Assembly: GCA_963920665.1 (NCBI GenBank)
Contig: OY987264.1
Location: 22,858,906-22,922,905 of the forward strand
Direction of reading: 5' to 3'
Length of the DNA: 64,000 bases
Source of the DNA: Straminergon stramineum
Lineage: Eukaryota; Streptophyta; Bryopsida; Hypnales; Calliergonaceae
The notes under the pieces were generated by a model. That model saw only the letters and a list, made by a program, of their open reading frames with translations, was not told where the DNA came from and searched no databases. Each line of letters opens with the position of its first letter. Within the stretch, counting starts at the first letter, position 1. Below are positions 4,335 through 31,321 of this stretch, piece after piece. The position numbers were made by a program, and so were the translations under genes.

Positions 4335-4630
4335 AGAAGTGGTGACCTCATGTTGTCCTTCAGTCTATCTGCCTGTCGTATCCTCCGACATGTCTTGCAA
4401 TACGTCAAAGTTTTTCGCTCCACCACTTTCTTCCCCACTCCTATCTTCAGGAACAAAGCGAAGAGCTTTGCGAAGGTCTCCCGATGTGGATTGACCTGTT
4501 TTGGACCTAACTTTCTTCCCTTGGGTCATTCTAGATCTCTGTAGTTCCTTATGAGAAGAAAAATACAAAGCCCTCCGCCTACTCTTTCTCTTTCTCTCGA
4601 ACGTACTAGGATTGGATGCGCCCAAGTTCT
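4335..4630 (-). CDS. Small basic exon of unknown gene, element I copy
   Basis: This minus-strand stretch lies between a splice acceptor (CTTGTAG) and a donor (GTAAGA). It reads through without a stop for about 98 codons. It holds a lysine/arginine-rich block (ERKRKSRRRALYFSS) followed by HKELQRS. The same pattern, RKRK..R...FSS.KELQRS, appears on the minus strand of element II at 20,649-20,940, in both cases about 1 kb upstream of the transposase start and divergent from it. Conservation of the reading frame between two diverged elements argues for a real exon. The basic block could be a nuclear localisation or DNA-binding patch. I do not recognise the family, and the other exons are not resolved. 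Confidence 0.4.
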
Positions 4631-5397: not shown

Positions 5398-8300
5398 ATG
5401 GCTTGCATTCGAGTGGATGGTCATGAGGTACCTCTTATGTTTATCGTAGAGGATGGAGGACGTGCTAGAGTTCATAGTCACCTTCTCCACGTTTGATTTA
5501 GATTTCTAGAGTCCTCCATTTACGTTGAAGAAGAAAGGATGTCGAAGTTAGGCAGAGTGAAAGAATGTGTCCCTGTTGTTAAATCCGTAGAAGATGAAGG
5601 ACATTGCTGGTACCTTTCCCCTGCGAACTATAGGGCATATGGACTTCCTCTCCCCATGCTGGGTTCTTCCACTGAGATTTTGAGTTGCCAGTCAAACAAT
5701 TCAACAGTAAATATGCCATTTTCCGGTTACATTTCACCTAGTGGAAGTCCTCAAATTGCTCCTGTTCTTCTAAAGCCTATATTACTTCAGACTGTGAAGA
5801 TAGAGAAATTAGATCCAATTATAGAACTTTCTAGTGAATCACAAGGAGAGTCTCTTGAATTGACACTAAGAAATCCAGGATGTTCTATCCTAATACCAAG
5901 TACTGGAAGGGCTCTATTGAACTCTACATCTAAGAATCCATCAAATAGTCAATTGCAATCCTCATTGTCTCGTCCTCTGTTGCATCCGTATCCAATCAAC
6001 AAAGTAAGCATAATGGATTGTTTGAAGAGCCTAGCCAACATGCATCGGTCTCGAAACGAATTATCCATAATGGATTTGAGTGTCATAAAGCACCACCGCG
6101 TTGCTTTTCTTCCAGCAATATTTGATGGAGATATCATTTTCGAAATACCGCCATGCCGCTCCACTTCATCTTCGTCGGCAGCGCGGAGCTTGGAAGGAAT
6201 GGACAAGCGCTATGATGGGCACCCGTGGTGTCGACTCATCACCACAAACATCAACAACACCGACAACCTAAAGTTTCGTAAGTCCTACTGTGCTGGCCAT
6301 CTCTCTTGTATGAACCCAAACTGTGATTATTTGAATAGAACTTCCAAGCAGAACAAAACAGAGTGGAGTGGCTTCACATCGATTCCTTTTGTAGTTGGAG
6401 ATGGGCCTCCCAAAGACAGTACCCTAGTTTGCAAAGTGTGTAGAAAACCACCTTCATGTCTTAGCCCCTGCAATGCTAGGATATACTATGCTTTCAATGA
6501 TAACCCTGAAATGAGTAGGGCCGCTATTCACTTCGGAGAGCACAACCACCTAGTTGCGAAAGGCATGTATAGAGATTCTGCGGAGCAAATCTGTGGGTTC
6601 ATTGAAGAGCAGGTGGCTAAAACACCAACGGCCACAAACTCGGCGATAGCTCTATCCGCTAGTAAAGAGTTCTTAACGAACTATCTATTTCACAACGGAG
6701 ATGGAGAGAAGGAGTTATTGAAGGGGGAAGAAATGGATGAGGTTATGGACTGCTTCCAATATCTCAGTAGTCCAAATATACGGAACGTGATCTCCTCTTT
6801 CCGCTCAAACAATAGAGGAGGGATCATTGACAACATTATGACCATGAAGAAGGAGTCGAAATTCGAATTCATACACGATAGTGTCTTCCCCGGCGAAGGG
6901 AAAGAAAAGGTTTATGTCTTCAAAATGCTCACAGAAGGACCAGGAAGTGGAGTGGACCTTGTAAGGCGCATGCAACCAGGAGGTAATCTACAAAACGCGT
7001 GGTTGATGTTTGACCACGTGAAGCGTGTGAAGGAGTGGACCACAATGGCCTGCCATGTGTACGATGTTGAGTACAAGAAGGTGATGACTATTGCAGTGTA
7101 CGATATACAGTCCGAAAATACTGAGGTGCAAGTACAATTTTAGAGGAGCTTAAATACTATCATGGAGCGACAGGGAGTGGCAAATCCAAACTTTAAAGGA
7201 TTCATGGTAGATAGTGCTATGGCCAATTGGAATGCGGTCCGGATTGTCTATGGCAGTGGATCTGCCAATGAGGAAATGGAGAATCGTGAAAGGACCTGTT
7301 TGCTACATTGGAATAGTTCTCTTCATAAACACACCCAAAAGTATATCAAGGAAGTACTTTAGCAGCAACATATTTCTCTGTGTAAGCAATATAAAGATTC
7401 CAAGAATATGGATGAGGCAGAGACATGTTACCTAGCAATTCGATCATGGTGGTTATCATCCAGAGCTGCAAATGAAGAAGCACTTCATCACTTAGACCAT
7501 TGGCTAGCATTTTGACATTTTTGATATCGGCAATTGGGAGGCTTCATAGATATGGTGAGTGAGGTATTTCTTTCTATGCATAAGGGGATTTCGACTAAAT
7601 CTATGGTGATACATACAATTTTCTTTCTTTTCTAATGATGTAGAATAAAGAAAGAACTTCATTTTCTAATTTTAAATTTTCTGAGTTATACTTCCTAGAT
7701 ACCTAGAAGAGGGGGTCTACAGAATAGTGAAAAAAAATATGTCGTGTCCAACATGTCTTTGTGGTGTTTACTAGCCCCCCTCTATTGACTACCTTTAAGT
7801 AACCATAGAAGTTTTCAAAGTCCTCATGTACGATGTCACTACTTCCTTATACCAATTCATTGAAAGATCATTATGTTCTTCTATTTCAATGTAGTAAAAT
7901 ATGTGTATTTGAATTTGTCTTTGAATGTACTTCATTGTCTGATAGGGCATGTTCAATAGAACACACAAGAGTCCATAGTTACAAATATGTATGAGGTATT
8001 GAAAGTGAAGTGCTAACTTTTCCCTGAACTTGTGTTCATTTCTAGAAATTGAAATTGGAGGAGATGCTCGACATACCATCGTTTAATTTATCTGAAATTG
8101 TTCATAACAAGTGGCTCCAAATGTCCAGAAAAAGGGGAAACAACTTGTTTGATGCTACTTGTGACGACAGTATTCGTGCTTGGATGCATATGACAAATTA
8201 TCGAGCATACCTTAGAGGTCATGCACGTGGCTCTGGTCCATCAAAGAATGAATTGAAGCTAAGGGCTGCCACTCGGAGTAGAGATCCAAAGAAAATTGCC

Positions 8301-9442
8301 GAAGCACTCAATACTTTACCTGGAGTAGAAGGGCTTGGAAATTGAATATTGCATTTAGAAGGAGAAGAGATCTTTGGAAGCACAAAAAGGAAGTTGGATG
8401 TACCCATAGGAGATGTTGGGGACTCACATAGACCAGACAAACTCAATTTCTCTCAACCACGTGTGCGTACGAGGTCCACATCGATTTCTATTGAGATCTT
8501 GGATGCAAAAGGTAATGAGCCTGCCACAAATATTTCTCCACATGTCAATATGTCACTATTGCATGTGAAAGTGATTGTGATACATCAAAGTGGCACATTG
8601 CAAGGATCAACCACAAATCGAATGCAAAATGTCACGCTCAACAACAGGGGTCAAATATCAAGTGCTTTGCTAGAATTGCAAGGGGAAGGAACGGTAACCC
8701 TGCTCCAACCTATCAAGGTAGAAAACTAGATTATGGTACTAAGCGAGAAGTGGTGGTTGACTTTTGGTTCTGCTGGGATGATATTGAACATTGTGTGAAA
8801 GGTTCGAAACGGAAGTGGATAATTGACTGGCCAAAGGTGCCTGAAGTTTGGCCTATTTTATCAGGGACACACCTCAATCGGGAAGAAACTCTCCTCTTAC
8901 AACATGCAGGATTTCAACTCCAACAGCACCCTACATTGTCGCCACGTCGACTTTTCAACATGTCAAACATTTTCAAGACTGCCTTGTTTGACCACCCACC
9001 ACCAAAGAATGCAGATGCATATCCAACAGTCAGGAATAGCCGAACTATTCGTAGTATTGCAAATGCACCAACTATAAAGCAGCGCAACAAATGGGAGAGT
9101 GTAGGAAACATTAGAGGGCAAATTCTGGGAGTGACCTTACTACCCCAACCGGGCTTAGGTGCAATAGTCTCGTTAGAGACAAGGGCAGACCATAACAAAA
9201 ATGTCTACCGAATTACAATTGGCATGTTTCCCGCATGCACTTGCCCTGACTTTACAAATATGGTTGTTTCTGCTATTGGAGGTTGACAACAATACGTAAA
9301 TTGCAAGCACTTGTACTATTTGTATAGGTACTTCTGCAAGATGGATGTCAACAAAGACAAATTCATTCATGCACCTAGTTATAGCTTCAATGAGTTGAAA
9401 CTCCTTCTAGTTCGAGCTGGAATTATTACAATTCCTGAATAG
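5398..9442 (+). pseudogene. MULE-type transposase, GCM-like zinc cluster + DDE + SWIM, decayed (element I)
   Basis: Two exons (5,398-7,554 and 8,046-9,442, intron ATG|GTGAGT to TTTCTAG) encode about 1,180 codons aligned throughout with the element II copy. In order they hold an N-terminal region, a VKIE plus IIELSS motif (SUMO site and SUMO-interaction-like), a cysteine/histidine cluster (CAGHLSC....C, CKVC, HFGEHNH) resembling the GCM/WRKY zinc fold, a DDE-type core (FDHVK, then FMVDSA.ANW) and a C-terminal SWIM-like finger (ACTCPDF ... VNCKH). The copy is dead: in-frame stops lie at 5,494, 7,141, 7,360, 7,513, 7,522, 8,343 and 9,284, and there is a frameshift near 8,640-8,700. Most stops fit CGA, CAG or TGG changed by C-to-T or G-to-A. 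The domain calls are pattern recognition and the MULE assignment is supported by the 9-bp target duplication of element II. Confidence 0.8.
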
Positions 9443-10659
9443 GCATGCATTCTTTTTCAAGCACACTTCATTTGTATTGTATTCATTTACATATGTTATG
9501 ATTGATATGATTTAGCACACTTGGAATTGAAAAAGTCTACGGATTTCCTAAGTATTAGAATATGCGCCATTCATGAAGTGTTTTGAAGCATATTCCCGTG
9601 AATGATTAGAAATTGTAATCATAATTTACTATTGCACACATGAGTATGAAATTCTATTTAATTCCATTCATTCTATATTTGTACTACCTACTTCATTTTT
9701 TTCTGAATTCCTTTGTCTCACTTGTCTTTCTTATTCTTTTCAATCTTTTCTTTTTTTGGATTATCCTTCACATTTTTTTCATCTTCTTTTCCTTTTCCTT
9801 AACCTTTTTTTTAATATCCCTTTCACTTTTATAATGAAAGTCTTTCATTTCCTTTCCATTTCCTCTTCCATTCTTTTTTAATGAACTTCCATTTTTTCGT
9901 CCTTTTTCTTTTCATTTACTACCTGTTTATGTCCTCACTTCCCATTTTTTACTTACTCTCATTTTCTATTTTTTTGCTTCCAATTTTTTGGGCACTCTTT
10001 TTATTCATTTAAGTATTCTAATTCATGGCTTGTTATTGTCATTTCTTTCTAGGACATGTTCTATCTTTTATAACTCACTTATTTCTATAATTTTCTACAA
10101 ATTTGTGCCACATGTTTACATGTGGCATCAAATTAGATGCTCCCTAAGATTAATTCTTACAATTTAAAATTATCCACTGCAACACTCTTACAAATGAGAG
10201 TGAGCTTTTTACCACAATGATTTGTCCTAACTCTGTCACCCTAAGCCGTCAATTGCCAACTCATACTTCACGTGCCTTCTTGTACTAGCGCATGTTGAAA
10301 ATTCTTATACATATGCGGTACTTAGAAGATATGGTTCTTTGCATGAACTAAAGCTAGCTAGGAAATTATAATTCACTATTTCCAAAGTGACATGAGTTTA
10401 CTAGACATTAAGCGGTTGGCATATTCTCTACTATAGTTAATAAATAAATTCTTTGAACTATGCACAAAATTCTGAAAGTCTGAATGCATGGCTATAGAAA
10501 ACCCTAAACCAGAAAGTATAAAATTTTATCACAGACCACGGTCATAGGGTACACGGTCATAGGTCACTGAATTTACTATAAATAGTAAGGTTTCCTTCAT
10601 TTTTTCTAACAAAAATGCAAACAAAAAATTTTGGACCAAAAAATTCCACAGAATAGGGT
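9443..10659. other. Gene-free 3' part of element I with pyrimidine-rich tract
   Basis: From about 9,690 to 9,990 the plus strand is almost all T and C with TTCATTT-like repeats. The open frame at 9,640-9,834 is a low-complexity artefact of this tract. No other feature is seen. Confidence 0.6.
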
Positions 10660-10737
10660 TTGGGGGCTCACTGCTCACAAGGTCCACGCTCGCAGCTCGC
10701 AAGCTCACTGCTCCAAGCTCGCACGCTAGCGTCGTTG
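10660..10737 (+). repeat. Right terminal and subterminal repeats of element I
   Basis: Read inward from the end, the sequence is CAACGACGCTAGCG followed by about seven GAGC boxes spaced 7-12 bases apart (GTGCGAGC, TTGGAGC, AGTGAGC, TTGCGAGC and so on). The right end of element II has the same form. Such arrays are usual transposase-binding subterminal repeats. Confidence 0.75.
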
Positions 10738-11899
10738 GAAGTCCACCCAAGGGATACTCAGTTTGAAAAGGGCCAATTCAATTGATCTCATTGTGAAAAA
10801 AGATAATTCAGATGGAGGCTACTTTTATATCATCATAATCGGTGAAGAAAATTACATATTCTAATAAATAAAATAAAAATTGATTAAACAAAAGTCTAGG
10901 ATTGATGTAATTAAACCAACTCAAAAAAACAAGAAGCCAAAATTGGACATCTTGATCATTTAGAGTGTAAAGTATAGAAGAATTTCCAACAAAGAGGATC
11001 ATGTGGTAATTCACTTAACCAATCTTGTTTGTAAAGGGAGCTACAACTAATTTTCTCATCTCTTACATTTAGGACACCTTGAGTCTCATAGCAGTGGACC
11101 TCTTTTCTTCTACAAACAAAGCCAAAATATTGGTAAGGTGAAAACATCCATTCAAACCAGTATGTGGACCCATTTCTAACAAGTAGACTTCATTTGAAAG
11201 TATCATGCAATATGCAATTATATTGTTTCCATCATTAGTTGTAATTGGTTGATTGTTGGTACTCTAGGTTTTAAGTTTATGACAAGTATATGTGACAAAT
11301 TCAATGGCGTGTAGGGGGCTTTTACTTTGACAATTCATAGTAATTACATGTCTTTTCAAAAAAATCTAATCTTTTTAAATAAAATTCATGATTTTCAATT
11401 GCCAATATTAGAAAAATGATTTTTCTTGAATAAGGTGCCTCCAATTTTATTGAATTGTTTATTTTGAAGCTTTTGGATGTTTTGGGTGTTTTCATCTGAC
11501 CTCTGCAAGAGGGTAGACAAAACACAAGTTGTAAGGCAAGACCAATCAAAACACATACGAGAGCTTGAAATTATACAATGGACATGGTAATGCACTTAGA
11601 CCTCTTTCATTTGACCTTTACAAAAGCGTCCTAAAACATCATATACACTTTTCAATCTATCATTGATTGTAATACACTTCACACATTTTCAAAATAAGAT
11701 AAACCAACCTATCATAGGCACAATGATTGTTTTGTACTATTGGCATTGTTGAAATTTAAAATTTGAAATGAAAAAAATGAAAAGAATAAAAAAATCTCAT
11801 GAAGACAAATGTCAGAAATGGGGAGAGCAATTGAATTTTATTTTTTTTGAAAAAACATAAAATTGTTCTAAATTTTTGAACTGTATTGCCCATTGGTCC
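10738..11899. repeat. Copy A, left part, of a 3.3-kb duplicated repeat
   Basis: This segment is collinear with 37,883-39,048 and differs by only a few percent. It continues at 26,443 after the 14.5-kb insertion. A minus-strand frame at 10,956-11,147, with CRRKEVHCYETQG followed by LYKQDWLSELPHDPLCW, is kept in both copies. It looks like an old coding fragment that I cannot name. Confidence 0.9.
11891..11899. repeat. Target-site duplication, left copy (CATTGGTCC)
   Basis: The nonamer CATTGGTCC lies directly left of element II and again directly right at 26,443-26,451. It occurs once at the empty site in copy B (39,040-39,048). Nine bases is the usual MULE duplication length. An 11-bp reading (CATTGGTCCCA) is also possible, but it would remove the shared CA from the termini. 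Confidence 0.85.
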
Positions 11900-11957
11900 C
11901 AGGGTTGCTATTTTGTGAGCCTGTGAGCCTATGAGCGTAAGAGTGTGAGCTACGAGT
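11900..11957 (+). repeat. Left terminal inverted repeat and GAGC array of element II
   Basis: The end reads CAGGGTTGCTATTTTGTGAG and then a run of five or six related boxes (TGTGAGC, CTGTGAGC, CTATGAGC, GTAAGAG, TGTGAGC, TACGAG). The first 29 bases pair with the right end with six mismatches. Confidence 0.85.
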
Positions 11958-12832
11958 GTAGATTTTCTTGTATTAAAAATTGATGAGGTACCTATGATCA
12001 TGGACTTCAAGATAAAGACTTCACCTTATAGTGCAGGATGAAAAAAACAAATGGTCATTAAATTTTTTTTATCTTCATGGTAATTCAGTTCATTTGTAGT
12101 GAAATTTATTGCAAATTCTCTTGTTATAGTTGAGGATATTTATAAAAAAAAAATACTTAATCCATAAATCACTACTGTAGTGCATTTCAGCCATTTTTTA
12201 CTATTTATTGATGATAATTTCGTCCATTAAAATGATGCCTCTTAATTTTACTTAGCAACTAATGAAATGTAGCTTCAGAAATGCAATTTTGACTCCAATT
12301 CGTGTGGCCTAAAAAAATTTGAAATTTAAACGATGCCAAAGAGAAGTAGACTTGGTTGCATTCTATGACATTTGACAATAGAATTATATGTAGGGCGAAT
12401 TATCTTTATTTTCTTTGTTTAGAATACATAATAATTTCAAATTCTAAGGCGTGCAAAAATATCACTACGTGTTGTTGACATATGACATCATTTCCAAATC
12501 ATAAACAAAATTATTTTACTCATTTGTAGTAGTCTAATGGTAGGAAATAAAGTGATAATCAATGAGCCTTTGAATCATTGGTCATTAATTCCTCCTAGCA
12601 AGGATAAATGATAAGTGAACTTCACATTTAGCAACACCATGTTCTTGTGAATTAAATATCATTTATAATCCCTTAAATTTTTGAAAACAGAGGAAGCTTT
12701 AAATATAACAACTTTAGATACATAGAATACTACTTATTGAAGTACCAAAACAATATATAATGGCTGATAAAATAAAATCCAACAAGTGCAGTGCAACTAA
12801 AAATAGACTTACATAGAAAATGTAGACATAGA
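11958..12832. other. Gene-free left arm of element II
   Basis: AT-rich sequence between the left terminus and the end of the methyltransferase gene. It should contain the 3' untranslated region of that gene. No other signal is evident. Confidence 0.4.
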
Positions 12833-15800
12833 CTAAGAGTGGCCACTGCTAGTAGTTGATGATGACTCTGTGTCTGATTCTAAGGCTGTCACATCTACAA
12901 ATTGCATAACCAAAGGATCTAAAGAACTCAACTTTTCATGCATAGGAAAATTTTGAGTAGATGCAAATGTTGAAGCCAAAGCCTCTGCATATGATGGCAA
13001 TACATAGGACTTCTTTGGGCTTGGGAAAAACTTAGGTAAAGTGAAAAAAGGTCGATGAACTACCCCATTAGAAATCATGCTGCAAATACATAACAAAGGA
13101 TTAGAAATGATTTAAATATTAAATTCCTGGTGAAACAAATAAGCAATGTAAATGTAAACAAAATTTAAACAATGTTTTACATGTACACTTACAAATTGAA
13201 AAAAATTCTAGACAAAGATAGACTTACTTACTGAAACGAGATTTCTTAATAATATGGGGAACTTCAACTTCCATTGCATCTTCATTGTCAGATTGCAAAA
13301 TGACTGTCGTGAGTGGTATTGGAACATCCAGAAGAGAACGAATCATTGGAGCTAGAGCTGCCTCAAAAATGGCCTTGTCTTCTTCAAGTGCAACTATATG
13401 TCTACTCACAATCCTACATGCATGGATGGAGGCCCCTAATAACAAGATCACCACATCAATTGTTAGAAAAATGGTGGGAGAGTTGGAGGAGGAAATATAA
13501 ATGAAGATTACAAAAATAGGTGGGGAAGGCAATTGAATTTACCAATTCCTGCAATACAGTCTAGAACAATGTCATTTCGAAGTGATGATGCTTCTATCAA
13601 CATCTGCAAGAATCATGGATCATTTTCTCGTGCCCCTCTCCAAGGCTTGGAATTGTGGTCCATGGTCAAAGTCTCCAATTTGGTGAAATTCTGAAGGACG
13701 TCATCTACGGCAACATCCACCCCCAATTTCTTCAAGCTTGGGCATGGCAGAAATTGAAACTTTGAAGGACCAATACCAAGCAAGTTCCTCACAAACAACG
13801 AAATACCGAAGTGCTGAGTCTACAAAAATGAAGAGATATGAAGATAGTTAGTCTATAATGTAAGCATAATTGGATACTCTTAGATTATTTGAAACGTAAA
13901 ACAAATAGAAAGATCTCACATCATACAATTGAAAACCAATATAAACATACAACACCTTGCTTAGAATTAAAAGTGAAATATTCAACAAAAAACTGTATAT
14001 AAAAAACTAACTACATTCTAAACCAAAAGGACAAATGAATATACCGTTCTTGAAGGAGAAATAGGTGAGGCCAAATGTAACCAATTCATTCCACACCAAT
14101 CCTTCATCTTCTCAAAATAATATGTAGTTGCATATGTGCGAATGGTGGCTTTTGTAACAGCCTTCAAAGGATAAATAATGATAAGAACTCCATCATCATA
14201 CAAATGACCATCAGCAAACTCAAAAACTGCCTCTAGCCCTAGAGGGTTGTCCATGTTCCACTTAGGCACGTTGGTTGTAGGCATTGACAAATTAGGGACA
14301 AGCAAACCCTCCAGAACATCGGCAATAATAAGATCAATGCGTGGTTTCTCACTTGTAACTCCTTTGAAGAAGCGTTGCTTCACCCCTTTGTACTGCAATA
14401 GAATTATGATAGTTAGTAAAACAAAGAAATAAAGTCAAAAAATAAAATCATAGCAAATTTATCAAGGCAAGTGAAGTTGCTAACCTCATCAATAAATTTG
14501 ATGATGTCATGGTACACTTAGGGTAGAGGATCAGCCAAAACATATACTAGAGAATGATTAAGAATGAACTCATCGATAGAAATGTCTGAGTCATTCAAAA
14601 ACTCCATAGCTGATGGACCATGCAACATCCCATCATCATTGAGTGAAACATAATTAGCATCATGTTTGGTGCCTCGCGAGAAAGATTGCACATGTTGGGA
14701 TCCTTCATCTCTAGTAGATGAAGGTGGAATTTGTTGCTTCATAATTTTGCCCCTAGTCTTCTTAGCTGCTGAAGCCTCTTCAATCTCAACTAGTTTCATA
14801 GCCTTCTTTGTGATTCTCTCCTTGGCCTTATCTACAACCTTCGAGTTTTTCAATGCTCTCTTCTTGTTAGCTTCATCCCTCTTCTTCATAGCTTTTGCTT
14901 TTGCATCCTCATCAAGACCAACAAACTCATCAATTTCTTCCACAACCTCATGAGAATTGATAGAGCGCTTGAGGTGCTCCTCTGGTAGCGGCATGAACTC
15001 CGGTGGGCAATCCAAATACCATGCACCTGATTTGAGATGCAAACTAGTCCACCACCTCAAGTGAGATATTGAGAACATGCAATGCTCAGAGGAGACATCC
15101 AACCATATTCCTAGAAAAGGAGGAAGATTATGCTTCGCAATTGCTCCCTTTGGCAACAACTCGTACTTGAAATACCTGTAGAAATAAAGAATGTTATTAA
15201 GAAAAATCGCATGCAACCAAGAAATCAATATCTCACTTAACCATAAAACAATGAAAACATGAAAGTAGAATACATACTTGTAAATCACACGTTTTACAAC
15301 TAGATCACTGCCCTTGTGCTTCTTGAAGTCATCTGACTTCCTAAAGACATCATGCCCCCTAAAATGCATCAAGAATGTATGGTCCCAAACTTAGATTCGC
15401 CATCCCTCCACATAATCTAGAAAACTCTCTGGTTCTTGGGGAGAATCCATGGACAATGTTAGCTTGTCCTTCTTTACAATGTTCTCAAACATTTCATTCC
15501 CCACCTCTTCAATCTGCAGAATAGAAAAAGAAAAATTGTCACATATTGATATCTTTGGTATCCAAATGATAATGTTATCTGCTATATAATATAATTGTAA
15601 GGCATTGAGAAGCACTTACCCCTATATACCAGCAGGCCTTTGCCAAGAATGATTATAATTCATTCTCTCCAACTGGCTTCAATGGGAATCTTCTAGCCTC
15701 TCTTGTTTGAATTGAAGAATTCCACCATTGCAACCACTTCACCTTTTGCTCACTACTGACATTGCAAGTTGCAATCAACTGCAACTTCTCGAGAGTCATT

Positions 15801-17100
15801 TCGGGGGTGATATTTGAGCTCCAATGGCGCTCAATCTATATCACAAGGAATTTAGACTAAGAAAGATGGCATGACAAGAAAAGAACATAAGATGAGAGGA
15901 CATATGCAATTTCATTTTACCTCTCGAAGCCATTCACTCCCAAGGTTGGAATTAGCCACGGCTGTTAACTTCTCCAACTTCTAGATCAACTTGGATGTCT
16001 TCTCTTTCATACCCAATCTCATGGCAACTAAGATGCCTTCCTCTGACTGCTCTTCCCTTGGTGTTTCTTCTTTATATAGTCGAATTGCAATATCAGCTGC
16101 TGCTCCAATCTCGTACTACATAATAATATAGCCATGAGCACTGTTGTAACTTAAAGCCAAAGAATATAAGAATGACATGATTAGTTTAGTAAGAAATGTT
16201 ACCCGAAAAATGAACAAAGTAAACACTTTGAGTGACATAGAGTACCAACTCTTTCGATGGCTCTGTTGGCATTGTGTCATCTCAGAGGTACTCAAATGCT
16301 CGTAGAACTTGTCTAGTGGAAGAACTCCATATTTTTGAACACGATAGAGCATGTGTATGAGACTGGTTTTGATAAATGAATTCTTTGTATGTCTGCAAGG
16401 AAAAATGTAGATGTTATATGAAACACAAATTAAGGTACATACCAAACCAAAATGTAAACTACATGAGGTAAGGCACTTACTTGTTGATGTTGTACATGGC
16501 ATGCATAACATCACCAATTCTACCCTTCATCTCAAGAATGATTGAATCCACCGAAATGTGCCAATCTCGGTCATGGCCATGATGTTTGGATATATATAAA
16601 GACCATGCAAGCAACCTATGGTTACCATCGCATTCAAAAAATTTAGAGTCTTGAAAACGCTCCAAGCCTGGTGTTGCATTGAGTTTGGCATTGAAGAGGT
16701 CATTCTCAACATTCCACATTGGGCCCCAAGCACATTTATCAACGTCAGACACTTGCTCTGTCTCTCCTTGCTCATTAGTTAGTGACACATAAAACACACA
16801 AAACCCATCTTTGTATCCGTGCACAAACTCTTGCTCCAGTCTGATAAGATCACATGCTAATGCTGGACAAACCATAGGCATCATAGCAAGTCGACAGAGT
16901 GCTATCTGCAAACGTGAAATTGAATGAGGTTTCAATCTCAAGTTAGTAATGGAAGCCACATAATTAACTTTCTGGGCTCTTCAGAGGGCATCTTTGGTGG
17001 TGAATTCCGTGCTTGTCTTCTCCACAACCTCGTCTTCATCTTCATCAATATTTTGATCCAACAAACCTAGAGTTTGCAAAGGATTGGAATCAAAACCCAT
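12833..17100 (-). pseudogene. ParB-like / beta-class DNA amino-methyltransferase-like fusion, decayed
   Basis: Ten exons (17100-16481, 16392-16203, 16115-15921, 15835-15620, 15513-15278, 15175-14485, 14392-14045, 13819-13543, 13435-13228, 13079-12833) join in one phase over 1,076 codons with GT-AG introns. Residues 158-166 read DGNHRLLAW, the signature of ParB/sulfiredoxin-like nuclease domains. A lysine-rich, probably coiled segment lies near 575-632. From about 717 comes a methyltransferase-like domain: DLIIADVLEG at the place of motif IV (DPPY), DDGVLIIIYP as the following strand, LASPISPSRT, then KPWRGAREND and motif I VLDCIAGIGGA with ACRIVSRHIVALEED. Motif IV before motif I is beta-class order. 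The DPPY tetrad is not kept. Premature stops lie at 16981, 15981, 15653, 15391, 14518 and 13613. A splice acceptor just before the ATG implies an upstream exon, perhaps untranslated. Confidence 0.8.
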
Positions 17101-17103
17101 CTC

Positions 17104-20100
17104 CTGCAAAAAACAACAAATCATTAGAAAGAATCATGTGGTACTAACAAATGGATGCAATCAGATAAATGAACACAACAAATAGAATTTGAAAAACAAC
17201 TCTGAAATAAGGAAGCCTAATTAATAGGGACCACAAGATCTTTAAAAATCCTTAAATCTAACCAATAAAAAACCAAACATTTCTCCATTATACTCTCGCA
17301 AGGGCCCAACAAACATAGTGCCCTCGGCGCCGAGGCCACCCATGCCAAAGGATAATTCTAATCTAGGTAAATATACAATTCAAGAAGTCGATATGACCCA
17401 AACCCTAAAAACATCAATTCATAGGAAATTATTTATCCCCTCGATGCCAAAGGATGCCAAATAGGGTAAACCAATTGATCAAAGCAACCAGTGAAACATG
17501 AAATCAATGAATTTCTCTTAACCCTAAACAAGTAAGATATATTTGATAAGATTAAAAAATCTCCAGCAAAACTATCCCTCGGTGCCGAAGGATGACTACG
17601 AGGATGAACAAATTGATTTTAAAAAAAAGTGTTTCAAGAAATCGATGAATTTGATGATATTTAATGTAGGTCCAATCAATTCAGAGAGATCAAAAACTCA
17701 ATGACAAGACTAGGCCTCGATGCCAAGGCTTCCCACTATCTAACTAATTTAGATACTAGAATCACTATCACTCTAATGTCATATCACGAAATTACTAGGC
17801 TAGTTAATCTAAACTATATTGTAATTTTTTAATTTATCCTCAATTATCAATTGATAATAGCAACACTTTCTCTAAACTTAGTCTATAAAAACCCAAGAGC
17901 TAATATGAAAACCAACTTTAGGATAGTTCCTTAATAATTATTCAAATAAAATATGGATCATAATACTCAGCTCACATAGTTCAATATTCTGAATAAGATT
18001 GAAAGTGGAGAATGTGTCCATCAAGATCGAGCCTTCCTATAATGCACATCAATTTGATTGATAAAGAATCAACTGAATCGAAATCGGAAAAATAGAAAGC
18101 ATAATTGTTTTAATAAAATAATTTTTTGACCAACAAACTAACCTCCCAGGTAAGGATTTGATTTGTGGATACATACTAATATGCTAATAAACTAACAGAC
18201 TCAAATTGGACGGTGGCTCATAAACTACCGGTTGAGATTTGTTTATCCTCAGAAGACAAGCCAACACAGAAGCCCAACCAGAACTACTTCGGGCCCAAAC
18301 TTCTATGCTTCGAGTGTGGAAAACCAAGATCAATGAATAACCACCAATTGACTCTCATCGGCCCTGAGGCTGGCAATACAGATCGATATGTTGATCCAGC
18401 AACTTCTCCTTAAGCCATTCCAAAACAAATTGTAGCAAGAAAAGAAGCTAAGTGACAACTATAATATCCTAATGAAGAAACGGATCACATCCGCAATTTT
18501 GCAACTAAGCATCCAACTGCAAGATCAATTGATCTTGTGCCAAAGCACATGTTTCCTGCAAATGATGGATTAACGATTATGTCTCAACCATAATAAAATT
18601 TTAGAGAGAAAAGCAGAACTCCAAGTTCTATTGTAATGGACTTCATCATCTAATTAGTATCTAATTCGACAAAGCCAACAATAGTACTTGTTGATCACAG
18701 CATCCAAGGGAGGACAATTCCATCGAGGCCGAGGCTTCTCAGTCGGCAGACCTGGCTGATCAGATTTCTGAATCGGCAGACCTTATTGAGCTCGTCTCAG
18801 AATTGGTAGAGATTGTTGAGAAAGCTACTTCGACACCCCTAATCACTCTAAAGTTTGAAATTTATGCAAGGTCGATGTAGTTAGCCTCTGTGAAATTTCC
18901 CCAACCATAAACTTTGAGTCTTGGGTATTTAATTTCTATAGGGTTTTTGTTATCTATTCAAATTAGTATCATGAGACAAAGTGCTCTATACATTCTTTGT
19001 GCCTTGCTGGTTTTCATGACCTGAAATGGAAGAACTAAATCTCGCCCTCGGGGTCAAGGGATCCCTTGCCTATTTAGAGAATGATTGGAAGAACTGTCTA
19101 GCTAAAATTTCATTCGCAGAATTCATTTCAAATTCATACAATGCATATGGTTTCGTACTGAGGAATATTTGCAACTTAATTCTTTCCCATATGTTGAGTT
19201 GTCGTTCTCTAACCCTAATTTCGTAGTCTGCAAATTTTCAGCTATCATTGCGAGCATGAGAATCTGTCCTCTCATTTCCCCTCAAATATGTTTCTAGATT
19301 CACAAGAAGATGAACTAAAATGGGTCTAACCCAAAGACCTGAACTATTCTAACTGAGTCTATCGTACAATTCTATTACCTCGTTCAAGCAATGAATTCTT
19401 TATTTCCTTCACAAACTCAGACTCTTCCAACGACTAGCTGCGAGACGCAAGAGATAACCAAGAAGCAAGATGTAATAGTTAAACAGATTACTTGGAAAGA
19501 AGTCTACAAACTAGACATGAAGGATGAAATTGAAAAAGGAGGGCCAAGACTTACTGTGGTTGCACCTGGAGTAGAAGTCTTGGTGGTTTCAATGCCAACT
19601 AGAATTTATGGGCTGACATCCCCATTACTACCATCACCCTCACTTTGGAATCCTCTAGCTGACGCGTTTCTCGTTGCAAGCTTCTTCACCACTTCTCGCA
19701 TTTCCTACAACAAGATTACGGAAACCTAATTTAGCAATCATCATATTCAGGTTTGAGGAAATGCGTAAGCTAAGTATTTTCTAAACCAGGTCTACACCTA
19801 GATTGTCACCAAGGCAATGACGAGAATTACTGCTTACGATCAATTGATCACAGTGCAAACTTGACCGCAGAGAAGGAATGAAATGGTCGGAAGAAGAGGA
19901 CGATGGTCTCCAGGGAAAAACTAGCGCCTCCCGATACCTCCGCAGTGGTTACCTTTGCAGTAGGTCACCCGATCGGTTACCTTTGCAATAGGTCCATTGA
20001 TTGGTTACCTTTCTAACAGGTTGCCCGATCGGTTACCTTCAATAGCCGGTTACCCGTGTATTGAAAGTGGTGTATATCAAATGGTATGGGATCACAATTT

Positions 20101-20648
20101 GAAAATTCAATTGTGGAATTGACATACAAAAACAATTATAGAGTGTGAGTTTTAGATTCCTTCTTGACGATTAGATTTTCCTATGCTATCATCAATATTT
20201 TTGTTCTAAATATTATCAATTTTGTTTAAAATTTGTTAGAATGTGTTTGAAATGAGGTTCTCTTCACATGGTGATTTTTTGAAATTTTTGGGTTCTTACA
20301 ATCTACAACACCATTGTGGCTAATCCCGTCTCGAGCTCTAGTCTTTGCAATTTAGTTTTGGTCAACTACATGACATACTTGCAGATTTGGAATTTAAAAA
20401 TATATGTACACTTGTAACATGAAATTCAACATTTCAAGACGACAAACACATCATATATTATATCTAGAAAGTAGAATGACTTCTCTCTAAGTTATATTCA
20501 GAAGATTCTTTAGTTTCAAACAATTTGTCATTTTCTCTTTGGACATTGGTGCATGTCAAGGTTATTTTAATTCTAATCTGTAGGTTGTTGGCATACTCAA
20601 AACATATGAAGAATATATATGTGTCCGTGCAAAAGTAAATATACTTAC
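17104..20648. other. Long spacer of element II with palindromic motifs and possible unresolved exons
   Basis: A possible 5' exon of the methyltransferase gene ends near 18,141 on the minus strand (CTGGGAG|GTTAGT). Imperfect palindromes of the form CCYTCGRYGCCRARGG lie near 17,322, 17,438, 17,577, 17,714, 18,721 and 19,046. At 18,720-18,830 a plus-strand frame repeats SADLADQISE, SADLIELVSE, LVEIVEK. On the minus strand near 19,620-19,710 an acceptor (TTGTTGTAG) is followed by a protein-like run with REVVKKLATRNASARGFQ, which could be another exon of the basic-protein gene. None of these is firm. Confidence 0.35.
19947..20058. repeat. Minisatellite, 28-bp unit, four copies
   Basis: Units start with GGTTACCTT at 19,947, 19,975, 20,003 and 20,031. 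Three are clear and the fourth is diverged. The consensus is GGTTACCTTTGCAATAGGTC then MCCCGATC. It lies inside element II, between the cargo gene and the basic exon. Confidence 0.85.
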
Positions 20649-20940
20649 ACACGAGTTTGACATTGCTCTCCTACGATAGAACTTGAGTTGCTCCACCTTA
20701 ATATTTGATACCTCCTGTACACTTCCTTCATTCGCATGGAAATTTTGTTTCTCCTCTTCTATACAAAGGTGGAAATGTGAAGTCGGAGCTGACAAATTTT
20801 CCTCTATAGCACCCTTCCCTCTTCTCTGTGATCGTTGCAACTCCTTCCATGATGAGAACAAAATTTTCCCTCTCTTCTTCCTCTTTCTAAAACAACATTG
20901 GGAAACACTATCGATTCTATCTTTTGTAGCATGCATGAGA
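20649..20940 (-). CDS. Small basic exon of unknown gene, element II copy
   Basis: The exon lies between an acceptor (ATCTACTAG) and a donor (GTGT|GTAAGT) on the minus strand. It is open for about 97 codons. It contains FRKRKKRGKILFSSWKELQR followed by further basic residues and EEEKQNFHANEG, and it matches the exon at 4,335-4,630 of element I at the RKRK..R and FSS.KELQRS blocks. It lies about 1.2 kb upstream of the transposase and divergent to it. The basic block could bind DNA or act as a nuclear signal, but I do not know the family. Further exons probably lie at lower coordinates, one perhaps near 19,700. Confidence 0.4.
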
Positions 20941-22096
20941 CTAGTAGATCATAATGTGGAATGAATTTGAAGAAATACAACAAGATTTAAGCAACGACAA
21001 GAATGCATATTCCAATATGGACTTCACACTATTCTCAACACAGCACGTAAGTTCAAATCCTATGGTGTTCACTAGAATGGGTAGACAATGACTTCAACTT
21101 TCATGTTAAAGGATTATTTCACGTTCATAGTAACAGGATTAAAATTTTCAAATTTCCACGGCAATCTTTGTAATTATATCATCACATATTGTACAACTCT
21201 TCACTACTAAGTATTCCATTTATGGCAACCTAATGTAGGTAGACAAATAGTTTCAAATTCATTGGCATCCACAAATTTGTGGAACATATTAAATGTCATG
21301 ATGGCCATACTTTAATTGGAAGTGTGGAAAAGTGGTTTTGAATTTGAACTTGGGTAATTAGTTACAGTGTAAGCACCAAAAGCCATCATCATAAGCAATT
21401 ATGCATAGTTCAAGGTACCTATCCTATACAATATTAGTTCCCTAGTATTGGCCGTAGACAATTTTGAATTTCTTAAAACTACTAGACATTCTAGAAATAG
21501 TATGTTAGTAATTTCTATGATTTTTCAAAGTGGAGGCTCCTAGACTAGTAAAACCATCATATCAATTTAAGGGACTTATATCTACATAACTAACCCTATT
21601 TACACCCAATCAAATTTAAATACAAAGACAGTCTATGGAGAATTAATTAGAAGTCTATAAACTATTTGAATGTTTAATGGAAAATCAAGGTACATGACTA
21701 CCAAAAGGAATTGAATGGATGTTTTTACTCTTCTGTTGCCCATTATTTGAGCACAATCTAAATCCGTCCTCTCTCTACAAACATGAAGCATGTTCTTGGA
21801 ATTTCGCATTAGTTTTCTTTATGAGTTAGGTAAGATAATCGACTTTCCCTTAAAGATTCTTCTTCAATTTGAGTGGTGGTTCTAGATATACGAGATTGGA
21901 GACCTCTAACAATATTGTTGTTTATCAACTAGTAATACAATTACATTTTGTCCTAATCATGTCCATTTAATTGTATACCTCATGCTTACATAATGTATAC
22001 AATAGAACCTCATACACATAGTAAGTTAGTCTCTAATCTCTAACAAGTTTTCATTAGATATTGTTCTCATTGTTGTTGTTTCTTCGTATGCTATCA
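20941..22096. other. Divergent spacer before the element II transposase
   Basis: AT-rich sequence. It should hold the promoters for the basic gene and the transposase. I see nothing else. Confidence 0.3.
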
Positions 22097-25000
22097 ATGG
22101 CCTCCATTCGAGCAGATGGCCATGAGATTCCCCTTGTTCTCCCTCTTAGAGAAGAAGGATATGTTGTAGTGTCTTCACACCTTCTTCATGTCTGATTTGG
22201 TTTTCTCCAATCCAGTATATATGTTGAAGAAGAGGTCATGTCTAATTCTGGAAGCTTGAAGGAGTATGTCCACATGATGAAGTTAGAACTTGAGGATGGT
22301 CATGCATGGCACCTTCGTCTAGGTTGCTATAGAGCTTATGGGTTGTTGTCTCTCATGATGGGTGCTTCCACCAAGATTTTACCTCGCCAATCATATCCTT
22401 CCACTATAGATATGCCTCGTGCTCGGCATGATATTAGGAATTCTATGGAGGGTCAAAACATGACAAAGGCGAGTAATACAATTCAACTTCTTCATGTGAA
22501 ACAAGAAGTCCTTCACCCTATTATAGATATATCTAGTGAGTCAGAAGGAGAGTCCCCTAGCCAACCAAGTATCCAAGCACCGCTTCCTGTTAGAGTCCTT
22601 GAAGATATGCTCAGGACAACTTCCATTACATACCACACGCCATCAAGTAGTCCTACTCTGTCAACTCACTCTCGCCCACCAACTTATCCAAATAGTATAG
22701 ACACAGCCAGTATTGTTGGGTGCTTAAGGAATTTGGCATCAATTCGTGGATCTAGGAATGAAGTTGGTGCATTAAACTACGATTCACTGATTCATCACAA
22801 AGTGCAGTATCTCCCCACAAACTTTGATGGAGACGTAGTATTTGAGTTGCCTTCACTTCGTGTTTCATCTTCATCATCCGCTAGTGGAAATCTACAAGGC
22901 ATGGATAAACGATATGATGGTCATGCTTGGTGTCGGACCATGACATCCAATATCCACAACCAAGATGGCTTGAAGTTCAAAAAGTCCTCTTGTGCAGGCC
23001 ATTTGGTATGTAACAACTTTGAGTGTGATTACTTGAAGCGGTCCTCTAAACACAATGAGACAGAGTGGTCTGGTTCTACTATTGTTCCATTCCATATTGT
23101 CTCAACTCCTCCGAAGGATTCAAGTATTATTTGCAAGACATGCAAATATCCACCTCATTATATTACTATTTGTGATGCTAGAATATATTATGTTTTTAGT
23201 GACATTGCATTGATGACGAGAGCATGCATTCATTTAGGTAATCACGTACATCCTGTGGCTTCGGGAACATGTAGAGAGTCTTTAGACACTACTTCCGGTC
23301 TCATTGTAAGCGAGGTTGCCAAGACTCCAGCTGCCACTAACTCAGCCATCGTCCTTGGAGCTAGTAAGCAATTTCTAGACAACAACCTTATTCACAATGG
23401 CGATGGTCCTAAAGAGATGTTGTAAGGAAAATTGTTAGAGGATGTAATGGATAGGTTCCAAATACTAAGTTCTCCTAACATCCGTAACATTATCACTTCA
23501 TTTCGTAGCACTGGTAAAGGTGGGGTCATAGATAGCATCAGGAATATGAAACGGAATTTGAAGTTTGAATACATTCATAACAGTGTCTTTCCTGGACAAG
23601 GAAAAGAGAAGGTATACTTGTTTAAAATGTTGGTTCAAGGACCTGGTAGTGGAGTGGACTTGGTGAAGCGCATGCAACCCGGAGAAGATTTAGAGAATGC
23701 GTGGCTTATGTTTGACCACGTAAAACGTGTTAAAGATTGGACAACCATGGCATGCCATGTATATGACACAGGATGCAGGAAGGTCATGACAATCGCCGTT
23801 TGTGACAAGCAATTTGAAGATATAAAAGTGCAATGCATCATGTGGAGGTTACTAAATGATGTTAAGAGACGCAATGGCGTGATGAGTCCTTACTTCAAGG
23901 GTTTCATGGCAGATAGTGCACAAGCAAATTGGAATGCTATTTGCATTGTATATGGCATGGGGAATACCAAAGAGGAGCTTGTTAACCAGGAACGTACATG
24001 TCTCTTGCATTGGAGTACTTCGATGCATCGACATACCCAAAAATTCATTAAACCGGATATGCAACACCAACATACTCATTTGTGCTCCCAATATAAAGAT
24101 TTCAAGACCATGAAGGAAGCCGAGACACAGTACTTAGCGATTCATTTTTGGTGGCTATCATCTAGAGCAGCTTCAGAAGAGGCTTTGCGTGAATTGGAGT
24201 TGTGGCTTGCATTTTGGCACTTTTGATATCACCAATGGGGCGGGTTCATGCAAATGGTACGTTATTCGATGTCATTTTTTTAATAATATCTTGCTTGTAC
24301 AACCATTTTCATTTCATAATGTCTTTCCTATAGAACTACTTGTGTTCCAATTTTGTTCCCTACAAACTAAATCACTACTTTTGATAGAATTCTGATCACC
24401 AAAGGTAATGATTGACTTCCCCTTGGGGCCGAGGGGACCCTTTGCCTCACAATGGAGTAATCAAAAAATTATAGTAGTATACCTTAGTGAAAGGTATGGC
24501 ATGTTTTGTTTTTTCAGTCATTGTATTTTGGGCTAAAGAAAACCCTTTTTCTCTTTCTAGGGGTTGAGTCTTGATGAAATGGCGGACATGCCATCATGCA
24601 ATTTATCAGAAACAGTGCATCACAAATGGTTGCAACAATCAGGCAATTGAGGTAATGACTTATTTGTCGCCACTTGTGATGACTGCATTAGCGCCTTTAT
24701 GCAAATGACAAATTACCGAGCATTCTTAAATGGCACAACATCAATGTCAGGGTCATCCAAAGAAGAGCTGAAGTTAAGAGGCACTAGATGGATTGGCAAT
24801 CCAAAGAAGATTAGAGAGGCTTTGAATGGCCTTCCTAGAGCAATTGGTGTTGGAACACGTATTCCACATTTGGAAGGTGAAGAGGTGTTTGGTAGTAGTA
24901 AGTGCAAACTTGACCTTCCCATTGGTTAGGATGGTGACTCCCATCATTCAAACAAGGTCAACTTCTCTCAGCCACGAGTGCAAACACGATCTACATGTAC

Positions 25001-25967
25001 ACCAACAGTGGCCTCCAATGAAGAAGAAACTTTGCCTACCTCTATGAATATACTACATGTCACAATTGCGATGGAGAGTGATCGTGACACTTCGCAATGA
25101 CATATTGCACGAATTTTGCAAAAATCAAGTTGCAAATGTCATGCCCAACAATGGGGATCAAACATTTGTTGCATTGCCAAAATTGCAAAGGGATCTAAAG
25201 GCACTCCAGCTCCAATGTATCGTGGTAGAAAAAAACAATATGGAGGAAACAAGGAGATCATCACTGACTTTTGGTTTTGTCCAGATGATATTGACCGATG
25301 TGTATGAGGCTCTAAACGTCCTTGGGTAATTGATTGGCTACAAGTACCTGATGTGTGGCCTATTCTATCTGACACTATATTGAGTCACCAAGAAACCCTA
25401 CTATTGCAAGATGCTGGCTTCCAACTCCAAGAGCGACCACCTATGTCACCTTGAGGATTATTCAGAATGTCCAACATTTTTGAAGTGGTCTTCTACGATC
25501 AACCTAGTCTTTTGCATGCAAACACGTATCCAACAACAAGAAGGAGCAAAGCTATTCGCCGTATTGTAAATGCTCCTATTATAGAACATCGCAATAAATA
25601 GAAGAGTGCTGGAAATGTCAAAGGATTGATCTTGGGAGTAACTATGTTGCCCTTCCCTAGGCTTGGAGCCATAATCTCTCTCTAATCTGGAACTCAACCT
25701 ACGGAAAAGGTTTATCGAATTACACTTGGCATGTACTCGGAGTACACTTGTCCAGATTTTATAGACATGGCCGTCTCAGCAATTGGTGGCCACCATCAGT
25801 ATGTGAATTGCAAACACCTTTACTACTTGTTTTGTTATTTTTGCAAAATGAATCCAATAGACGATAAGTTTGTACATTCTCCAAGCTTCAGCTTCAATGA
25901 AGTGAAGCTTCTTCTCAGTAGGGTTGGTATCATCAAGCTTCCAAATGAGAATCTTCATCATACCTAG
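22097..25967 (+). pseudogene. MULE-type transposase, GCM-like zinc cluster + DDE + SWIM, decayed (element II)
   Basis: Two exons (22,097-24,256 and 24,561-25,967; intron ATG|GTACGT to CTTTCTAG) give 1,188 codons before the stop, without a frameshift. A VKQE plus PIIDISSESEGE motif (SUMO site and SUMO-interaction-like) lies near residue 135. The cysteine/histidine cluster at about 268-388 has SCAGHLVC....C, CKTC and HLGNHVH, with NQDGLKFKKSSC before it, as in GCM domains. The DDE core includes D540 (FDHVK) and D606 (FMADSAQANW), then TCLLHWSTS. The C-terminal SWIM-like finger has TCPDF and VNCKH, but its first cysteine, present in element I (ACTC), is tyrosine here. Stops lie at 22193, 23423, 24224, 24648, 24927, 25098, 25305, 25452, 25599 and 25683. 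The TGA codons at 22193 and 24224 occupy the same sites as those at 5494 and 7522 in element I. Confidence 0.8.
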
Positions 25968-26387
25968 ATGACCGAGAATCTTTGAGTGTTTACATTTCAG
26001 ATTGGAAGGTTGTAGATTGAAATTAGATATGTAGCTTCAAGAGTATTGTTTTCTATCTAGACAAATACTGTAATTTGCCAAAGTATTCAATACAATCTTT
26101 TTTCAATTTCAATTTGCATTGCACTATAGTTCAGTTATTTACCATTAAAATATATACTTTTGATGTTTAGTACATTATGAAAATAAAACATTTTACACAA
26201 ATTGTACATAACAACAATAATAGGTCCGTGGTAATAGGTCCACGGGAATATCTTCATGGTAATAGGCACTATAATTTACTACAAGTAGAAAATTTTATCC
26301 TAATTTTTATAATGCTATTTCTTTTTAGAAATCTTATTGACTTTTTTCTTAAAATTTTCTAAATGTTAGAACTCAACACTCACATAG
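25968..26387. other. Gene-free right arm of element II
   Basis: AT-rich. Near 26,220-26,270 three copies of an AATAGGTCCACGG-like motif resemble the GGTCATAGG motifs at 10,540-10,565 near the end of element I, so they may be subterminal signals. Confidence 0.4.
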
Positions 26388-26442
26388 TCCCTGCTCACTG
26401 CTCGTAGGCTCGTGCTCGCACGCTCACAAACTAGCACCGTTG
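26388..26442 (-). repeat. Right terminal inverted repeat and GAGC array of element II
   Basis: Read inward, the end is CAACGGTGCTAGTTTGTGAG followed by GTGCGAGC, ACGAGC, CTACGAGC and AGTGAGC boxes. It pairs with the left end at 11,900. Confidence 0.85.
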
Positions 26443-28568
26443 CATTGGTCCCAAAGAGTCTTTAGACTACTCCAAAACCAACAAAGAGTGTATCCATAAT
26501 GGTAGTCTACTCACCTACAACGGTCATAATATTTCCTAACATGGCTACTACAAGAAGGCCTAAAAAAAGTCATATCTTGTGATGAATTTGCACTCAAGAG
26601 GTTGACATTTCTATTGCAATCACTAATTACTCCATGCGGTAACAAACTCAACCTAATGTAGCCTAAATCTCATTGATTGAATTTTTTTTTGTCATAGGTT
26701 TATGCAAGACTTTGATGGGTCATTCCTCAAGTGTCTATGATGGGTCTTTTGCCTATGATGGGTTGGTTCACCTTATGTCATGATCAGTTTTTAGGAACCC
26801 AAGCAATTTGATAATAAAGGTCAAGTTGTACTTTTATTAGCTAGGAAGTCCTCCCCTATGTCACCATGGAGAGATGAGTGAGAGTGTGACTAGTTGAAAG
26901 GAGTAGGGTTTAGAGTCTAGACAACAACTTTCTAGTTCATTGAGGGTACATTCTTGGAAGGAGTTTCAAATACTTTGGCATAACTCTTAGGACTGCATTA
27001 CACTAAGGTAGAGGAGTGCACCGGTCAAGAATTATAGGGAAATGGAGCATTATGATTGGAGGAAGTTTCTTCCTTCACTAGATTGGGTTTACACTACAAC
27101 CAAGACTTGCATGGTAGAGAACTTCAAGCATAGATGAAAAAATGACATGGGTACCTACGTTGCAACACTTTTTGTAAGGGGAGTTCTCAAGGGGTCAAGT
27201 TTCTTGGGCGAACTGAACCCCCAAAGCCTAGACAAGAAACTTGGCTTTTGGAGAAATCCAACTTCACTAAAATATTCTTTCTTGTGATTTATTTGAATTG
27301 TGTAATTGATTGGTTTGAAATTTTGTGTACATGATTTGCATTAGTACAGTCAGTGTCAATGCTTGTCTTTTATGTGTGATCAATCAATCGACATGGTAAT
27401 AATGGTGCAAACAACTCTTGTGCAAATTTTGAAGTATGTTAACCAAGGTTAGCGGTTCAAGGAGAATCACCATTGAGAGTAGAATAGAATTTCACAATGG
27501 GCAAAAATTTGGTTGAAATGAAGTTGAAGTTGAAGGATATTATGTTGGTGGAAATTTTGGAGGAAATTTGAGTGGAAAATTGGTAAAGTAAAAAATCAAA
27601 GGAAAATTTAATTGTAGAATAATTAATCCTGGAAGGACACCAAGGATGTTTTGTGTTGTTTTGGATGGTCAAATAGTCTTTGTGCATATTAAAGAATGGA
27701 TGATTCTCACCATTTTTTTAGTTTATGTAACTTCTTCAATGCTATATCTATATGATTGAATTAAGTTCAAGACATTTTAGTCTTTTATTTTAGTTTATAT
27801 GGGATAGTTTATCAAAAAAATGGTACACTATCCAATGCATTTCAATACTTTGAGGTTTTTTCATAGAAACTTGATTTGACATTCAACTTGCTTTTGAACA
27901 ATGCTAACAAAATGAAGCTTCTAAGAGCTTGTTTAGTTCTAGAAAGTTTGGATATTAATTAACTCTTTCTGTCACTGCCCATCATTCTAGATCGATGTGA
28001 AGAGACGGAAATTGAAAAGGAGGAAGAAGAAGAGTATGTACTATATAGTAAGGAATAGTTCTTTATACAATGAATATGGGATTTCTCCTCTTCATCCCCA
28101 TAAGACCATGACTATCTTTTTCAAAAGAACACTCCAAACATGGACTTGAATTGAAATGAAAATTTTACCACAATAAATAGACTTCAAAGGAAATCTAACC
28201 TTGCAATTTTTTTTGCAAGTGGACATTGGATGAAAGAGAAACAAGCCCTAGAGTTGTAGCCCTCAAAATGCACTTCGGTAAATGAAAATGGAATCATGTA
28301 TACTTAAATGATTCCCACAAAATCAATACATATTGGATTGATTTGAAAATTTTACCACACAAACGAGACAAGTAGATGAATTTTTTCCAACAGGTTTTAT
28401 GAAATTCGGGCAATGGATGCAAAAGTTAAAACTTCTCAAATTTTGCTACACCCCAAGAATGTACAAAATATGTCAATAGCGGGACCATTAGGTGTTACAA
28501 TTCCTATTGTGGCTAGCCAAAACCCTCTTGCTGGTGAAGTTTGCCAAAAGACTTCTCTGGTTGGTATT
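26443..28568. repeat. Copy A, right part, of the 3.3-kb duplicated repeat
   Basis: It begins with the right copy of the target duplication (26,443-26,451) and is collinear with 39,040-41,163, near-identical over long runs (for example 26,820-27,950). Near the end both copies keep a plus-strand frame starting MDAKVKTSQILLHPKNVQN, then MSIAGPLGVTIPIVAS. It looks like a coding fragment, but I do not recognise it. The repeat has no visible terminal repeats, so its class is unknown. Confidence 0.9.
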
Positions 28569-31263: not shown

Positions 31264-31321
31264 GGAAAGGAAGAAGAAGAGCAACCTAAGGCTGGCGTGA
31301 ATAAAGAGCCTGTTGGGGTTC

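Follow-up and report, generated by a model that had tools for sequence, protein, structure and literature searches.

The 64,000-bp stretch of the moss Straminergon stramineum analyzed here (contig OY987264.1, positions 22,858,906 to 22,922,905; the window) contains a 14,543-bp transposable element, element 1 (window positions 11900..26442), which carries, beside a transposase gene, a second gene coding for a ParB-like part joined to a methylase-like part. This cargo gene is resident in a high-copy transposon family, probably of the Mutator-like element (MULE) superfamily. We see about an even chance that its protein is a self-targeting DNA-binding factor of this family, the ParB part of which would read the palindrome CTCGGYRCCGAG. 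Arrays of this palindrome occupy the intron that precedes the ParB exon, and its core recurs there in related copies, with different positions in divergent ones. An earlier description of the window from its letters alone (the original prediction) had proposed a plant MULE with a ParB-methyltransferase fusion as cargo.

Element 1 entered its site as a single clean insertion. The empty site is represented by a paralogous repeat at 37883..41163 (plus strand), which is 95.1% identical to the left flank (10738-11899) and 97.6% identical to the right flank (26443-28568). When the two flanks are joined, 418 of 454 positions match the paralog and the alignment crosses one CATTGGTCC uninterrupted, with no insert, so that the 14,543 bp are missing there as a single unit. 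In the window, CATTGGTCC flanks the element on both sides as a target duplication (11891..11899 and 26443..26451), and the ends of the insertion are common to related copies. The terminal inverted repeats (11900..11920, plus strand, and 26422..26442, minus strand) are identical at 17 of 21 positions. The terminal 70 bp contain four (11900..11969) and five (26373..26442) subterminal [TC]GAGC repeats, equal to 5.7 and 7.1 per 100 bp vs. 0.07 in the interior. The ends, the terminal and subterminal repeats, the transposase gene and the ten-exon gene of the original prediction are thus all present. Its 9-bp duplication was found as well, but related copies and element 2, described below, have 10 bp. 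Since nine related copies show this length, the duplication of element 1 may originally have been 10 bp long, with the first C of the element lost or shared.

A second, divergent element of the same layout, missed by the original prediction, is inserted in the same repeat. Element 2 has a total length of 18,959 bp and begins outside the window at G000:C2:22850684 with CAGGGTTGCTAGCATGCGAGC, so that its right 10.7 kb occupy window positions 1..10737, with the right terminal repeat at 10717..10737 (minus strand). Its duplication GAAGTCCACC is located on both flanks, on the right at 10738..10747, and its left flank matches the paralog (the part left of 37883) with 96.8% up to the junction, which is its empty site. 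Since element 2 contains ParB and methylase exons, the ParB-exon match being located 2.2 kb left of the window, the two divergent elements that reach into this window hold the cargo at an equivalent position. Within element 2, the DNA between the ParB exon and the transposase includes 3.9 tandem copies of a 361-bp unit (window 1-1380).

The mobility of the family and the residence of the cargo gene in it were also observed in further copies of the same genome (326 Mb, 59 contigs). A DNA search with the ParB exon gave 40 matches, ten of them at 93-100% including that of the window itself. The end stretches of the ten next-best copies (L002-L011) were examined, and in nine of them both termini are present along with a 10-bp duplication, which is perfect in seven (L002, L003, L005-L009) and has one mismatch in two (L004, L011). 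In L010 the left end is present and the right-side match ends approximately 330 bp short. The 3′ portion of the transposase gene was detected at the DNA level in all five copies inspected that far. A genome search with the relative protein P0036 yielded 150 scored ParB-exon matches among 798 candidates, and for 30 of the 50 best-scoring matches no in-frame stop is listed in the ParB exon. Among the copies examined, none of the window subfamily was found with the entire cargo open; L002 has no stop in exons 1-5 as searched and one stop in exon 9. Between subfamilies the ParB exon is under purifying selection, as determined for the 25 of 30 loci with a usable exon and with 8 of 300 pairs, which fell between both classes, left out. 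Two outcomes named beforehand as speaking against a transposon cargo, a single-copy host gene and a gene always outside of terminal inverted repeat pairs, are contradicted by the 150 scored matches and by the position of the cargo between the termini in nine of ten copies and in both elements of the window.

In element 1, eight sites with at most three mismatches to CCTCGGNGCCGAGG were found, all of them non-coding according to the gene model. The perfect palindrome CCTCGGCGCCGAGG is located at 17322..17335 and is followed by sites at 17439..17452 (three mismatches), 17577..17590 (one), 17715..17728 (two), 18356..18369 (two to three), 18721..18734 (two) and 19046..19059 (two). The eighth site, with one mismatch, lies in a non-coding part of the transposase gene (24421..24434). 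The core CTCGGNNCCGAG was counted with at most two mismatches in the 1.5 kb upstream of the ParB exon and compared with shuffled sequences. Nine near copies contain 42 upstream sites (shuffle mean 0.98, maximum 4) and none downstream, five mid copies 22 (mean 0.57, maximum 3) and none downstream, four far copies 17 (mean 0.61, maximum 3) and one downstream, and eleven distant copies 9 (mean 1.25, maximum 4) and two downstream. Genome-wide, CTCGGYRCCGAG occurs exactly 236 times vs. 17 times for the reversed control. Among the sites listed, eight clusters on C1 and C2 comprise at least two exact sites; seven of them were tested, the eighth adjoining the known copy L026. In six of these seven clusters, found by the pattern alone, a ParB match was identified downstream of the sites, and none was found in four control stretches. 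Of the 50 listed exact sites, the 49 on C1 and C2 were tested for proximity, and for 15 of them a listed ParB match is no more than 6 kb away, compared with a mean of 0.26 and a maximum of 3 at random.

Several observations weigh against a ParB part that reads these palindromes. The motif was first spotted by eye, the upstream counts, the genome-wide count and the cluster test being the tests independent of this. The distant groups (L020-L030, 11 copies) contain few sites, with six upstream and two downstream at no more than one mismatch, and the part of element 2 in the window has no palindrome at this threshold. With at most two mismatches the core is not rare, with 7 occurrences in the right flank (37.5 kb), 6 in window 1-10737 and 8 in element 1; at one mismatch or fewer these numbers are 0, 0 and 3. 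Furthermore, 34 of the 49 listed exact sites lie more than 6 kb from a listed ParB match, 14 of them in clusters with ParB, and one tested cluster (L086, G000:C1:20430500-20437500) has no detectable ParB match. On the side of the protein, the fold match of its relative P0029 has a Z score below 8, for which the tool warns of a possibly just common arrangement, and no Foldseek match of this model reaches an E-value of 1e-3. The L086 cluster is perhaps a shortened copy.

Without a limit on GC content the first palindrome statistic was weak (7 vs. maxima of 3-6 in 20 shuffles), and with a GC limit, which was chosen afterwards, it was 7 vs. at most 4 in 200 shuffles, while three other window stretches gave 1, 1 and 3. 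The aligned introns showed no clear excess of conservation over background at four sites. Against the near-copy background of 0.925, two of these four were lower by more than 0.05; against the mid-copy background of 0.588, three were higher and one was lower. A search of Rfam at gathering scores gave no match.

The cargo gene of element 1 is located on the minus strand, opposite to the transposase gene. Its ten exons are bordered by AG/GT and, spliced in frame, comprise 1075 codons, with six premature stops. Exon 1 (16481..17100), with a TGA at 16983-16981, codes for the ParB-like part with the motif DGNHR. It is followed by exon 2 (16203..16392), exon 3 (15921..16115), exon 4 (15620..15835), exon 5 (15278..15513) and exon 6 (14485..15175), which includes a charged stretch. 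The methylase motif IV region, assigned by eye, lies in exon 7 (14045..14392) and the motif X/I region in exon 8 (13543..13819); exon 9 (13228..13435) and exon 10 with the stop codon (12833..13079) complete the gene. Two extra 5′ exons on the same strand may exist near 19.6 and 20.8 kb. The putative exon at 20649..20948 has a basic stretch and is similar to a like-placed stretch of element 2 (47.6% over 21 amino acids, tblastx E-value 1.9e-4), and the second one (19553..19704) is based on splice borders assigned by eye. Between both lies a 28-bp tandem repeat (3.3 copies, 19947-20039). That all premature stops derive from C-to-T changes is not claimed, as this did not hold for the transposase; the cargo was compared with relatives at three of the six codons.

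The structure model of P0029, a relative of cargo exon 1, has the ParB/sulfiredoxin (Srx) fold, and on this model exon 1 is predicted to carry a ParB/Srx-fold domain. The motif DGNHR, which we take to be a ParB box II-like motif, was found in 126 of 131 exon proteins, with NGNHR in one and no such motif in four. The ParB-type domain with DGNHR of the original prediction is thereby supported. Searches of Pfam, PHROGs, NCBIfam and PDB gave no sequence-profile match for the ParB exon, and no relatives were confirmed in phages, plasmids, IMG/VR or GTDB genomes. An early model built from 13 sequences, with a predicted local distance difference test (pLDDT) value of 41, was set aside. Against viral models, the best Foldseek match of the ParB model is an uncharacterised Faunusvirus protein (E-value 1.1e-3). 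Several ParB proteins of phages come next, and a DNA methylase of a phage ranks fifth. The top match is a weak hint of giant-virus relatives for the ParB part.

The C-terminal part of the cargo protein resembles, in its sequence, a permuted N4/N6 methylase. Residues 902-951 match PF01555 with an E-value of 6.6e-5 (23.4 bits vs. a curated cut-off of 26.7), the E-value for P0026 is 0.011, and weak PDB matches were obtained for DpnA (E-value 0.022) and MboIIA (0.25). The motif order is permuted, with the S-adenosylmethionine (AdoMet) motif I after motif IV. The relationship to methyltransferases, as originally proposed, is supported by the profile match, just below the cut-off, and by this order. 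However, [DNS]PP[YFW], the catalytic DPPY motif, is absent from the position assigned by eye to motif IV in all 24 cases (the window, L002-L014, L017-L019, four distant copies, element 2 and two metagenome proteins); L015 and L016, for which no exon 7 was obtained, are outside of this count. The window reads DVLEG, and the other 23 cases read DVPEG, DVPKG, DVLEG, NVPEG, NVLEG, DMPEG, DCHEN or DYQEN. The last two forms, found in L078, L079 (copies L023, L025) and L087 (element 2), are a second form of departure. Because divergent subfamilies share the departure, the sequences suggest that the loss of DPPY is an ancestral change and not only decay of single copies. The DNA-modifying activity that had been proposed for the cargo is therefore doubtful.

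The transposase gene region of element 1 (22196..25967, plus strand) was recognized by its similarity to that of element 2 (5391..9436, plus strand). Four aligned blocks show 54-62% amino acid identity, with a proportion of non-synonymous differences (pN) of 0.25 vs. a proportion of synonymous differences (pS) of 0.80, so the two transposase lines diverged under selection. Both copies are decayed, and neither has a Pfam match at E-values up to 1; relatives of the element 2 transposase were not found in IMG/VR. Inspection of the two aligned copies by eye revealed DHVKRV, DSAxAN and CLLH; CTCPDF...CKH was seen in element 2. These may represent the DDE with CxxH and the C-terminal SWIM-type CxC...CxH motif of the MULE superfamily. 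The duplications, 9 bp in element 1 and 10 bp in nine of ten copies and element 2, are in the MULE-like range of approximately 9-10 bp. Since the transposase has no Pfam match, the assignment rests on duplication length and these motifs, and membership in the MULE superfamily is likely. Of the plant MULE originally proposed, the mobile element and a duplication of fitting length stood, and the transposase lacks the profile match.

Bacterial ParB, Noc and KorB act with parS-type sites. The cargo resembles them in the fold of the relative's model and in the arrayed palindromes near the gene, and differs from them in having no sequence-profile match and a different motif. Under the explanation that we favor, the second gene resident in this high-copy MULE-like family is transcribed in the direction leading away from the transposase and codes for a protein that combines a ParB/Srx-fold domain with one descended from a permuted N4/N6 methylase. 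The ParB part would act as the sequence reader, recognizing CTCGGYRCCGAG in the introns of its own element, and may clamp at these palindromes or spread from them. In layout the elements are similar to VANDAL elements, and by analogy to VANC of the latter, the protein may keep the element expressed or help its transposition. Methylation by the usual mechanism is improbable for its methylase-derived part, which may serve as a reader of DNA or bind AdoMet. A more far-reaching version, which we put forward only tentatively, is a partition-like system in which a ParB-type clamp would load at parS-like arrays and spread, with the methylase part as a non-catalytic reader, so that the many copies in one genome would be treated as one class, to be shielded from silencing or readied for transposition.

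The same protein could also be a catalytically active methyltransferase (N4C or N6A) that its ParB part brings to the element, where it would mark the element's own DNA. The permuted order, the PF01555 match and the weak matches to DpnA and MboIIA agree with this, and the authors of the Ectocarpus report suggest such a role for their protein (PMC12477816). The missing catalytic motif argues against it, as do the irregular motif I in the distant groups and the finding that a change of SPPY to APPA abolished N4-methylcytosine (4mC) in the rotifer N4CMT, as given in the report on this enzyme (PMC8885841), and we consider an active enzyme rather unlikely. Alternatively, the palindromes may be sites for the transposase or for a transcription factor of the host, or be a structural feature, with the ParB-methylase protein acting elsewhere, e.g., at the subterminal [TC]GAGC repeats. 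These are dense at all three ends measured and are shared by element 2, the window part of which lacks near-exact palindromes, but the palindromes cluster upstream of the ParB exon and not at the termini, and their arrays predict ParB genes. This alternative is likewise rather unlikely.

Two further explanations concern the origin of the gene. The copy in the window is decayed in both its cargo and its transposase gene, and the six premature stops would suit a functionless passenger caught by one Pack-MULE-like element. A passenger by single capture was rejected, with very little probability left to it: the cargo is common to divergent elements of the same layout, under purifying selection between subfamilies and present in many copies, 30 of the 50 best-scoring ParB exons being listed without a stop. 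A host ParB-methylase gene standing among transposons by chance is extremely improbable, with nothing observed in its favor, and was rejected too, as the gene lies inside precise insertions which are missing from the paralogous sites.

Elsewhere in the window, a 640-amino-acid open frame on the minus strand (29431-31353) matches protein kinase profiles in three stretches.

This kind of transposon is already known from algae. Sola1-1_Ec32 of Ectocarpus is a 21.5-kb DNA transposon with a protein of 1104 amino acids which combines a ParB-like and an N4C/N6A methyltransferase domain, and its authors suggest that such proteins bind and modify the transposon's own sequence (PMC12477816). Similar proteins have been reported from transposons of green and red algae (Iyer, Abhiman and Aravind 2011; Petroll et al. 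2025, as cited by PMC12477816). As in this giant transposon, both domains are encoded here in one gene, inside a DNA transposon and on the strand opposite to the transposase. Sola1-1_Ec32 differs in its brown algal host and its Sola-1 superfamily from the elements described here with their 9-10-bp duplications and putatively SWIM-like transposase, and section 5 of that report discusses neither catalytic motifs nor binding sites (PMC12477816). The VANC proteins of VANDAL elements are also accessory proteins and bind repeated short motifs in the introns and upstream regions, i.e., the non-coding DNA, of their own elements (PMC5735166). However, they consist of DUF1985 and DUF287 and not of ParB or methylase domains, and their motif YAGTATTAY is of a single orientation and non-palindromic, unlike CTCGGYRCCGAG (PMC5735166). 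The bdelloid N4CMT, which is permuted, and the 4mC methyltransferase of Marchantia are bacterial-type amino-methylases in eukaryotes as well, but N4CMT has SPPY, which is absent here, and no role as transposon cargo is described for it there (PMC8885841).

In a literature search from which subscription papers were missing, no land-plant or MULE case of a ParB-methylase cargo was recognized. The original prediction, which knew of no described plant transposon with this pairing, agrees with this search as far as land plants and MULEs are concerned, and the kind as such is known from the algal transposons. What is new in the present case is its host, its probable superfamily, its copy number, the changed motif and the arrays; of these, the absence of DPPY and the palindrome arrays upstream of ParB look new altogether.

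The contest between genome parasite and host over silencing becomes visible in transposons with DNA-binding or DNA-modifying proteins as cargo. In this moss, a prokaryote-type cargo is resident in more than one divergent element line, together with an explicit candidate target sequence. What such proteins bind and whether they methylate, which the algal report left open, thereby becomes directly testable.

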